From Bacteroidota bacterium (GTDB taxonomy: Bacteria; Bacteroidota; Bacteroidia; 2-12-FULL-35-15): a stretch of DNA of 64,000 bases. Shown here piece after piece: positions 59,282 through 62,375 of the stretch (the first letter of the stretch is position 1; each line of letters opens with the position of its first letter). A model generated the notes under the pieces. The model had not been told where the DNA came from, ran no database searches, and saw only the letters and a list, made by a program, of their open reading frames with translations. The position numbers and the translations under genes are program-made. The stretch covers positions 1 through 64,000 of the forward strand of contig CANJYB010000004.1 in assembly GCA_947479085.1 (NCBI GenBank). Reading direction: 5' to 3'.

Positions 59282-61168
59282 TTAATCCAATGGTTCATAC
59301 AAGCCGTAAATAAAGGGATTGCTCTTTACTACTTCCAGTTTTACATTTTCAACCACAATATTTTTTTTGCCCCTGTTCCACAAGTATATTTTTATTTGCG
59401 GGCGGGCATATCCTTTCAGATTAAAATCAGTCATTAGCTTTGATAAATACATGGTATTGGTGCCGGTTGCATTGGTATTATAATTCTGATAATCGGCACC
59501 GTTCCAGTATAACGAATTGTCATCTTCCTGAATATCTGCAACAATTGTGGGGTTTGCAAGGCTATCGGTGCAGGAAACGGTGGCGGAAATGGTGAGTATA
59601 TTATGACGGTTATTGGTTATGTTTTTTAATCTGTCGGAAAAGGCAGGACCATATTCTACAGTCGAATCCATTTTGTTGGTTCCGTTGGTCAGGTCGATGG
59701 TTTTTGAGGAAACCACCTGTTCGTGCAGCTCGTTTGCAGGTTTTTGTTTTGCAAAGCAATAAAAGGAATACGTAAAACCATCTTCTTTTTTAAACAGGTA
59801 GGGATATTTTTCTTTAATAATCTGAATGTATTCCAATGGCGGATTTCCGAAAACAAAATAATCGGTAGTCTGTTCGTTTACAAACTTGCGAAATGCTTTT
59901 GTGTCTATTTTGTTATCAAAAGGATTCCAGTAAATACTTTTAAATTCACGATTGTATTTTTTAAAATAGTGTTCCCTGTAAGCTGGTGGAATTAATAACT
60001 CAACAGTTACTTTTTTCTCGTCTCCTATTTCATCAATTACTTTATAAGTATTCGTTACCTGGTCCTGATATGACTGATGATAAAAAATCTGGAAGTGTTT
60101 GCGGGTGATTACCAATGAAAAAATTCCGATGACTAAGATGAGTGAAACCAGCGTGGTTTTAAACGCAACGCTTATCTCTCCCATGATTGAGAATAAAAAC
60201 ATCAACAAAAACGGAAAAACAAATATCATGGTGGAGAACTGGATGATGGGGTTTACTTTTAGAGAATAATAATATTCTATAAAAAATACCACCAGGAACC
60301 AAGCTGCCGAAATAATCCTGAACTTTTGTGTTTCTCTTATTTTCTCCGAATACTTTATAAAGCTAATCAGCAATAAAATAAACAGCAAACCATACATGAT
60401 GTAGGAATAATGAAACGTGTATTGAAAATACATCAGCAGCCAGTTTACGTCCGGTTTGCCAAGCCAGCCATCATTACCACCAAGTCCGCCTTTGCTGAAC
60501 TGATATAAAGTAATGCTGATGTGGGGAAGGTATAAAACAATGATGCTTACGATGGCTATCAGATATCCTTTCCAAACATTTTTATTTAAAAAGAAAAGCC
60601 CTGTAATACCTACCAACATGGCAAGTAAAGTGGCAAAGTGATGGGTATAACAGCAAAGCATGGAGAAAACCACATAACCTATAAGTGATTTTGTCTTTTT
60701 TTCTTCGTCAAATAAATAGCGGCTCCAGTACCAAACCATCAGCAGCGAAAACAAAACTCCCGTCATGTAAGGCCTTGCCACCTCGCTGTAGGTAATCATG
60801 TATTGCATTATGGCCATAAATGAGGCAACCATAAGTGCTACACTGGTATTGAACCAGCGGGCGGCTATTTTGTAAGCCACATAAATGGAAGCTAGTCCGC
60901 AGAGGATAAACGGAAGTTTTACTACCATTTCATTTTCGCCAAACAGCATGGTCCAGTAATACAGAAAAACCTGTATAAATATCGGGTGGCCGTCTGTACG
61001 GGCACCGTTGGTAATAAGTTCGGAAAGAGAATTGAAATGTGTCCGGGATAATGCACTTAACTCATCGTGCATGTAAGGCATATTGGCAAAGTTCCAGAAA
61101 CGAAGAATAGCCGCTATGAGTAGGATAGCGATTAAAAGAAGATTGTCTTTAGATAACTTGCTATTCAT
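59282..61168 (-). CDS. Glycosyltransferase family 39 (ArnT/PMT-like) membrane protein
   Basis: A 628-aa polytopic GT-C enzyme predicted to transfer a sugar from a polyprenyl-phosphate donor at the periplasmic face. About eleven hydrophobic helices run from residue 10 to ~370. The first loop has the catalytic-type acidic motif PYMHDELSAL (Asp35, Glu36) followed by TDGHPIFIQVFLYYW, as in GT39/ArnT-like proteins. The soluble C-terminal third is periplasmic and unrecognised. Its ATG at 61168 abuts the 61169 copy of the tRNA-Ser end, so its native upstream region has been displaced by the GIY-YIG unit. Confidence 0.88.
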   Translation of the reverse strand: MNSKLSKDNLLLIAILLIAAILRFWNFANMPYMHDELSALSRTHFNSLSELITNGARTDGHPIFIQVFLYYWTMLFGENEMVVKLPFILCGLASIYVAYKIAARWFNTSVALMVASFMAIMQYMITYSEVARPYMTGVLFSLLMVWYWSRYLFDEEKKTKSLIGYVVFSMLCCYTHHFATLLAMLVGITGLFFLNKNVWKGYLIAIVSIIVLYLPHISITLYQFSKGGLGGNDGWLGKPDVNWLLMYFQYTFHYSYIMYGLLFILLLISFIKYSEKIRETQKFRIISAAWFLVVFFIEYYYSLKVNPIIQFSTMIFVFPFLLMFLFSIMGEISVAFKTTLVSLILVIGIFSLVITRKHFQIFYHQSYQDQVTNTYKVIDEIGDEKKVTVELLIPPAYREHYFKKYNREFKSIYWNPFDNKIDTKAFRKFVNEQTTDYFVFGNPPLEYIQIIKEKYPYLFKKEDGFTYSFYCFAKQKPANELHEQVVSSKTIDLTNGTNKMDSTVEYGPAFSDRLKNITNNRHNILTISATVSCTDSLANPTIVADIQEDDNSLYWNGADYQNYNTNATGTNTMYLSKLMTDFNLKGYARPQIKIYLWNRGKKNIVVENVKLEVVKSNPFIYGLYEPLD

Positions 61169-61215
61169 GCGGAGAGGGCGGGATTCGAATCTACCTGTCG
61201 GTAGACAGGCCCGCG
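61169..61215. repeat. Partial tRNA-Ser 3'-end copy (att-like), interrupted by a palindrome
   Basis: Bases 61169-61189 are identical to 61480-61500, the 3' end of tRNA-Ser(GGA) plus one base. The match resumes as CCCGCG at 61210-61215 after a 20-base insert (61190-61209) built on the palindrome CCTGTC-GGTA-GACAGG. The insert supplies the stop codon of the GIY-YIG gene. Confidence 0.9.
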
Positions 61216-61460
61216 TCTTTGTCGCGTAATGACTTTAATTGCTCTTTTCCCGTCCCGCTTTTCCAATATTTTTCTCTGTTTCTTGCATCTATTCGATTTT
61301 TACACTCTTCAGAATAGATTAATTTAAATGGTTTATAAGGTTTAGTTGTTTTTTCATATCCTGAATTGTGCCGTAATATTCTTTCATTTATATTAGAAGT
61401 TAACCCAACATAAATGTAATTTTTTGACACACTTGAAATGGCATAAACAGTAAAAACCAT
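61191..61460 (-). CDS. GIY-YIG nuclease-family protein in a tRNA-associated unit
   Basis: An 89-aa single-domain nuclease-like protein from ATG 61460. The core is MVFTVYAISSVSKNYIYVGL (GIY and YIG strands), an Arg in NERILRHNSG, and the metal-binding Glu in ARNREKYWKSGTG. This matches small stand-alone GIY-YIG proteins. The frame is open upstream through the tRNA-Ser gene, so a longer start would encode tRNA sequence and is rejected. It lies 20 bases after the tRNA end and would be transcribed from the tRNA promoter. The last ~6 residues (GLSTDR) come from the palindromic insert. Confidence 0.88.
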   Translation of the reverse strand: MVFTVYAISSVSKNYIYVGLTSNINERILRHNSGYEKTTKPYKPFKLIYSEECKNRIDARNREKYWKSGTGKEQLKSLRDKDAGLSTDR

Positions 61461-61480
61461 TTGTAAAAATTTAATTTCAG

Positions 61481-61567
61481 CGGAGAGGGCGGGATTCGAA
61501 CCCGCGATACCCTTGCGAGTATACAAACTTTCCAGGCTTGCTCATTCGACCACTCTGACACCTCTCC
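61481..61567 (-). tRNA. tRNA-Ser, anticodon GGA
   Basis: An 87-nt tRNA read on the minus strand. The acceptor stem GGAGAGG (61567-61561) pairs with CCTCTCC, followed by discriminator G at 61481. The anticodon loop is CTGGAAA, with anticodon GGA; a long class II variable arm (TATACTCGCAAGGGTAT) and the T-arm GGGTTCGAATCCC are present. CCA is not encoded. A duplicate of its last 20 bases lies at 61170-61189. Confidence 0.95.
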
Positions 61568-61581
61568 GTTTTGTTGGGGTG

Positions 61582-61589
61582 CAAATGTA
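61582..61589 (-). promoter_or_regulatory. -7 promoter element for tRNA-Ser
   Basis: TACATTTG on the minus strand, 14 bases before the tRNA 5' end, matches TAnnTTTG. Confidence 0.5.
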
Positions 61590-62152: not shown

Positions 62153-62186
62153 CCTTTTATCAGTTCTTTGAATTTTAAAGTTTAGT

Positions 62187-62375
62187 GTGGAATTTCTCCG
62201 AAAAGATGTGGAAACCTTCTGCAACCTTGAGGAAACTATTCACAGTAATGTGGAACTATTCCACTTTATTGCGGAAACTTTCCGAAAAGATGGGGAACCT
62301 TTCCACAAGGCTGAGGAACCTTTTCTTAAGACTGTGGAACTTTTCCACAGTCATGCAGAACACAATAAAATGAAC
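62187..62375. repeat. 21-bp tandem array (nine units) of GTGGAA
   Basis: GTGGAA or a one-base variant (GAGGAA, GCGGAA, GGGGAA, GCAGAA) starts at 62187, 62208, 62229, 62250, 62271, 62292, 62313, 62334 and 62355, without a single slip from 21 bases. TTCC words in antiphase create short GGAA/TTCC dyads. It fills the 277-base gap before the hypothetical gene at 62430. Confidence 0.95.

Follow-up and report, generated by a model that had tools for sequence, protein, structure and literature searches.

Endonuclease genes that restore the gene they enter have been described in fungal mitochondria, where the mORFs found at atp6, atp9, cox2 and nad3 in Glomus and Allomyces consist of an endonuclease gene inserted into an essential gene (PMC3630166). 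A mORF brings with it a replacement 3' end that restores the gene, the native end being displaced downstream of the nuclease, and in the atp9 mORF that nuclease is of the GIY-YIG type (PMC3630166). In phages, the GIY-YIG homing enzyme SegB lies near tRNA genes and amplifies a tRNA-Tyr segment (PMC13096335). SegB of T4 and T6 and its relatives are free-standing GIY-YIG genes linked to many tRNA isotypes, and SegB has been implicated in the cutting of tRNA-containing DNA and in tandem amplification (PMC13096335, PMC2988022).

Here we describe a locus in a 64,000-nucleotide stretch of a Bacteroidota genome (contig CANJYB010000004.1, positions 1 to 64,000; hereafter the window) which is one instance of a widespread family recurring at many tRNA genes across Bacteroidota. 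On the minus strand the order is tRNA-Ser(GGA), a 19-bp spacer, a GIY-YIG gene, CGCGGG, a palindrome, a 21-nt tRNA end and the ATG of a GT39 gene, with the features placed as follows.

61582..61589, minus strand: TACATTTG, putative -7 element of the tRNA promoter, of Bacteroidota type, assigned from its sequence
61480..61567, minus strand: complete tRNA-Ser(GGA) (ARAGORN; Rfam tRNA E=3e-11); by empty-site comparison, native sequence covers positions 1-67 and the restoring copy makes up the final 21 nt (61480-61500)
61480..61500, minus strand: restoring copy of the tRNA 3' end, from T-loop to end, recognised as an exact repeat and followed by the imported spacer
61191..61460, minus strand: GIY-YIG nuclease gene, ATG start at 61460, 89 aa, TAG stop (PF01541 E=4e-17)
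61210..61215, minus strand: CGCGGG, the tRNA sequence on the 5' side of the pseudo-tRNA break (T-stem)
61190..61209, minus strand: palindrome of 20 bp, CCTGTCTACCGACAGGTAGA, inserted in the partial tRNA copy where T-stem and T-loop meet
61169..61189, minus strand: displaced native tRNA-Ser 3' end, joined to the native flank (GT39 ATG at 61168)
61190..61500, minus strand: entire 311-bp insertion, in one of several equivalent end placements; its removal restores the empty site

The original prediction for this stretch had two identical 21-bp copies of the tRNA-Ser(GGA) end flanking a single gene, a stand-alone GIY-YIG nuclease of about 89 aa, with no integrase and with a left copy that continued beyond a 20-bp palindromic insert, and this description was borne out throughout. 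The repeat GCGGAGAGGGCGGGATTCGAA is exact at 61169-61189 and 61480-61500, with a spacing of 311 bp that has room for the GIY-YIG gene only, and no integrase gene lies between its two copies. CGCGGG stands behind the palindrome on the minus strand, so that the partial copy amounts to a 27-nt tRNA end split by 20 bp at the T-stem/T-loop junction, and the TAG stop of the nuclease falls within the palindromic insert. In the 4.28 Mb of genome searched there is one complete tRNA-Ser(GGA) end, and the 16-20-mer palindrome family occurs once, at this locus. Chance was ruled out as the source of the 21-bp repeat by its exactness and by the family-wide pattern set out below. The element TACATTTG is conserved upstream of the tRNA at four other loci (L222, L223, L225 and L226) and is assigned to the type TAnnTTTG, the -7 promoter element of Bacteroidota. 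The tRNA promoter probably drives the nuclease gene as well, a position 19 bp behind the tRNA being suited to this. Elsewhere in the window (62160-62373), degenerate short tandem repeats of the form GTGGAAC..TTCC lie behind an XRE-like regulator gene and are unrelated to the element.

The 311-bp segment is a true, lineage-specific insertion with the tRNA restored, because its deletion reproduces, without gaps and with a perfect junction, the empty site of the congener G015 (L226; 202 of 220 positions identical). In G015 the tRNA-Ser end runs straight into the ATG of a GT39 gene whose protein is 81% identical. Given this match, the tRNA copy beside GT39 in the window is the native end, and its junction with GT39 is the same as in the empty site. 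A look for empty sites in close relatives had been suggested as a check, and searching 37 genomes with the tRNA as query yielded the exact one in G015 and also G004, G012 and G014, in which a 100% identical tRNA-Ser and a syntenic GT39 gene occur and the nuclease is absent. The insertion breakpoint is ambiguous inside the 21-bp repeat, and the rebuilt tRNA is identical to the empty-site tRNA across it; the two 21-bp ends are identical, and of the restored end and the sequence that follows it, only the spacer TGAAATTAAATTTTTACAA, missing from empty sites, is new. It had also been proposed that the arrival of the element placed tRNA sequence against the GT39 start codon. This part has to be withdrawn, since the GT39 ATG of G015 already follows directly on the native tRNA end; what the insertion did was to shift the tRNA-end/GT39 junction 311 bp from the working tRNA. 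In the native arrangement (L226) the GT39 gene has no 5' leader beyond the tRNA itself. Replacement end inserted, nuclease gene, and native end displaced on its native flank together form the arrangement of a mORF, and presence or absence at one exact site among close relatives is the behaviour that marks a free-standing homing endonuclease gene.

The protein is a member of the GIY-YIG superfamily (PF01541, 62.6 bits against a cut-off of 22.6). By sequence profile, its closest solved structures are the UPF0213 proteins 1ywl (E=2e-10) and 1zg2 (E=1e-9) in the PDB, followed by SLX1 (E=1e-5). UPF0213 proteins are not known for any mobile behaviour; SLX1, which acts on branched DNA, carries a second domain. 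Residues Y6, Y17, G19, R27, H31 and E63 are conserved in 192-194 of the 194 family domains, and K67 is practically invariant too. Most measurable close pairs gave dN/dS values of 0.06-0.25, and one close pair gave an uninformative 1.26 from six differences only. By these sequence measures purifying selection acts on the nuclease and its catalytic set is invariant, and the gene is therefore kept as a working (predicted) nuclease.

Protein searches returned matches in 56 of 119 related genomes and, with a patchy distribution, in 18 of the 36 genomes within the genus. In the 31 loci that were read, tRNA genes lay beside nearly all. About 80 further loci came from the protein search and 80 named loci from a species-wide contig scan (249 relatives overall); the first alignment (A1) was too diverse for that scan and a narrower one was used, which biased the 80 named loci towards tRNA-Leu and tRNA-Ser. 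Of the 119 genes in the unbiased genome set, 82 lie within 800 bp of a tRNA on the same strand, and three have one on the opposite strand. All but 16 of the exceptions belong to a single tRNA-free sister clade (0/18); among homologues outside it the count is 81/97, and 70 of those 97 have a tRNA within 150 bp, against a chance expectation of about 0.2% per gene calculated from tRNA density assuming 45 tRNA genes in 4.28 Mb. The coupling of GIY-YIG genes to duplicated tRNA ends thus holds for the tRNA-associated clades and fails in the sister clade.

The tRNA targets comprise Ser, Leu, Met, Arg, Val, Ala, Pro, Asn, Asp, His, Thr and Gly. The genome studied here has a second element at tRNA-Met(CAT) (G000:C13, L002 1302-1950), where the pseudo-tRNA pieces to either side contain TCCGCC..GGCGGA palindromes and the beginning of another decayed nuclease copy lies downstream. 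Two GIY-YIG genes lie 125-126 bp behind same-strand tmRNA genes (L145, G042:C31; L200, G001:C578), and at these two no convincing duplicated tmRNA piece was found. By their record titles the named loci are mostly from Bacteroidota, Ignavibacteria and Balneola, and the few candidate-phylum MAGs among them may reflect real transfer or misbinning. Elements at tRNA-Leu occur in contigs assigned to Kaiserbacteria, Doudnabacteria and Paceibacterota (L082, L084, L109). A search for viral carriage found a relative in one viral contig only.

At 129 loci the far side of the nuclease gene bears a second tRNA copy, a partial one. When the complete tRNA was aligned with the other side of the nuclease gene, a significant second copy was obtained at 78 of 101 loci, as against 0 of 101 controls. 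The arrangement comes in two mirror-image forms, a 3' form (tRNA-nuclease-3' remnant; 74 rows of the tree set) and a 5' form (5' remnant-nuclease-tRNA; 46 rows), and in the 5' forms L009, L015, L026 and L028 the upstream region of the tRNA is duplicated too. Tandem arrays of the tRNA-associated nuclease unit also occur. Breakpoints fall in any loop of the cloverleaf (D, anticodon, T, position 8/9), and a search for RNA families at the partial tRNA gave nothing above threshold except tRNA.

The palindrome is a regular part of this tRNA-associated GIY-YIG system. A hairpin, defined as GC-rich and perfect with arms of 6 or more, was found in 111 of 129 partial copies, compared with 6/129 far control stretches and 33/129 complete tRNAs. 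The insert is 19-20 bp long in 51 of 67 flush events, and all 34 distinct flush sites (isotype/position combinations, not fully independent as positions are shared among related elements) lie outside stems, where 20.0 would be expected. These positions (8/9, the D-loop, the anticodon loop, the edge of the variable arm and the T-loop) are loops or stem-loop junctions. In the Met, Val, Ala and Arg(TCT) clades the palindrome is not flush and substitutes for part of the anticodon arm. Some partial copies hold two palindromes in two different loops (L053, L085, L086, L100, L112 and L020), and some nuclease genes have palindromes on both sides. In the genome set, on a FastTree phylogeny of 194 short domains that leaves many forks open, palindrome family changes 9 times, as against 26.1 after shuffling, and tRNA isotype 25 times, as against 48.7; the family labels are pattern-assigned and rough (L002, whose insert is TCCGCC..GGCGGA, is mislabelled A). 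At tRNA-Ser there are three palindrome families (CCTG.., TCCGAAGGA.. and GGCGAG..CTCGCC), and each of the three goes with a nuclease clade of its own; the match between palindrome and nuclease therefore does not come about merely via the tRNA. Palindrome and nuclease evolve together, the palindrome family following the nuclease clade.

We consider that the locus represents a minimal homing-type mobile element that finds in the tRNA gene its target as well as its homology arm and that carries its own replacement end, a reading to which we assign a probability of about 0.58. The original suggestion of a homing-type mobile gene with a restored target agrees with the exact empty site, the patchy distribution and the recurrence at many tRNAs. 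The sole gene, a small UPF0213-like GIY-YIG nuclease housed in the tRNA transcription unit, would cut an unoccupied tRNA gene in a cloverleaf loop or at a stem-loop junction. The occupied copy would then serve as repair template: its complete tRNA would pair with one broken end and its partial tRNA with the other, so that the tRNA gene itself would provide both homology arms. The recipient would acquire the nuclease, the replacement tRNA part and the palindrome; its working tRNA would be rebuilt and the native end moved to the far side of the nuclease gene, with pairing over the 3' or the 5' part giving the mirror forms. If an empty tRNA were broken and then mended from an occupied locus, the outcome would be exactly the product observed. 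The clade-specific junction palindrome would belong to the element and may mark the displaced copy as neither tRNA nor intact target. We infer the cutting of tRNA genes, the repair route and the function of the palindrome.

In intron- or intein-type homing the insertion interrupts the target and the occupied allele is immune, which is not what we find: the rebuilt tRNA recreates the uninterrupted target, and the element is consequently without the self-protection of such elements. The rebuilt tRNA might be spared because the donor allele is cut inefficiently, which has been noted for free-standing phage enzymes, or alternatively because cutting may require extruded cloverleaf DNA. Further points count against the homing model: one homing event does not account for partial copies with two palindromes in two loops, homology arms of 21 bp, sometimes shorter, are short for RecA repair, and viral contigs, a conceivable vehicle of transfer, yielded just one relative.

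The 20-mer is present in 28 of 119 genomes, from one copy to many tens (G042). It is single, and located at the nuclease, in the genome studied here and in G104, and numerous in G042, G069 and G049. Dispersed copies are mostly distant from tRNA genes and from any nuclease gene, and share with the tRNA copies a flush purine/pyrimidine-type junction that avoids T at -1. Hairpin loops hold no excess of them (3 vs 3.0 expected). Tight co-occurrence of dispersed palindromes with a cognate nuclease was not seen among these genomes, with exceptions of both kinds. At L266 (G003:C20:10019-10638), another palindrome (TCCCGATAGC and TATCGGGA on the two sides) is interrupted at its exact centre by the 20-bp palindrome CCTGTCTGCCGACAGGCAGG, and these nested mobile palindromes lie in a terminator-like hairpin.

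The dispersed palindromes may point to a relation of the REP/RAYT kind, in which the GIY-YIG protein would mobilise its cognate palindrome flush into hairpin loops, with tRNA loops favoured; the tRNA duplication would serve cell survival, the nuclease locus would be autonomous and the dispersed palindromes would be solo copies. Such a relation would account for the tracking of nuclease clades by palindrome families, for dispersal of one and the same 20-mer in some Bacteroidota genomes, where it reaches as many as dozens of copies, for the junction common to both kinds of copy, and for partial tRNAs with two palindromes and nuclease genes flanked on both sides. We nevertheless regard it as rather unlikely, as our own genome and G104 have the nuclease without a dispersed copy, G038, G005 and others have dispersed palindromes without a strong nuclease match, and the occupancy of hairpin loops is at chance. 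Conceivable, though less likely than not, is an entirely new class of mobile element in Bacteroidota, in which clades of tiny GIY-YIG nucleases, each with a short palindrome of its own, would recognise the cloverleaf of a tRNA gene in extruded or single-stranded DNA, place the palindrome in one of the loops and spread as the tRNA is rebuilt from a half that they carry, leaving dispersed palindromes as solo products.

Partial copies and tandem arrays resemble products of unequal crossing-over, and one could suppose that palindromes invade the redundant copy left by local tandem duplication of a tRNA, with the nuclease gene caught between by accident. We find this improbable, since the constant component is the nuclease, which keeps to the strand of the tRNA, falls into isotype-specific clades and is under purifying selection, while the window calls for no tandem tRNA and for one 311-bp insertion event. 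It is slightly harder still to credit that the host benefits, through adjustment of tRNA gene copy number by the nuclease or through defence: arrays are present here and SegB offers a precedent in its amplified tRNA-Tyr segment (PMC13096335), yet the amplified parts are the nuclease and a defective tRNA piece, with no working tRNA, and distribution is patchy inside one genus. The direct repeat of a tRNA 3' end and the restored target recall an element of the tRNA-targeting tyrosine-recombinase kind from which the integrase has been lost. That origin is barely conceivable, given equal size and a single gene in loci of many genera, breakpoints in every loop and equally clear 5' forms. For the last two reasons the proposed integration into a tRNA 3' end does not stand in the integrase sense, and an integrase-type island was rejected on these grounds and for want of an integrase.

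Precedents exist for parts of the homing-type reading, namely the end replacement of mORFs and the tRNA-linked GIY-YIG homing enzyme of phages. As in mORFs, a nuclease-borne gene end is inserted and the native end displaced; unlike mORFs, the elements reside in bacterial chromosomes, at tRNA genes of at least a dozen isotypes and in both 5' and 3' forms, and their nuclease of approximately 90 aa has no extra DNA-binding domain and is accompanied by a clade-specific palindrome in the displaced copy. The likeness to SegB lies in a free-standing GIY-YIG gene tied to tRNA genes of many isotypes, but SegB is a larger, intergenic phage protein for which no partial tRNA copy with a palindromic insert has been described, whereas the gene here sits inside a split tRNA duplication on the chromosome and is rare in viral contigs. 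UPF0213 and SLX1 resemble the nuclease in sequence profile. REP/RAYT systems offer a possible parallel in short palindromes that are dispersed and have a cognate enzyme encoded at a locus of one gene, but the enzyme here is GIY-YIG, with no Y1 (HUH) transposase, and its locus is tied to tRNA genes. The tRNA-integrating islands share the tRNA-end direct repeat and the restored tRNA, and differ from this 0.3-kb unit, which has no integrase, breaks in all loops and includes 5' forms. We found no description of this combination in the open-access literature (subscription journals and preprints being outside coverage), and the elements apparently constitute a large family of minimal mobile elements undescribed so far.

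If the homing-type reading is true, essential single-copy tRNA genes would be open to invasion by a 0.3-kb, one-gene element that mends its own damage, and this at many tRNA isotypes and across many families of one phylum. Should the pairing of palindrome and nuclease prove mechanistic, the elements would form a new class. For the numerous small GIY-YIG genes of Bacteroidota the family suggests a role that can be tested, and it provides a candidate enzyme for the unexplained short palindromes of their genomes, as well as a simple system in which the targeting of structured DNA or RNA genes may be studied.
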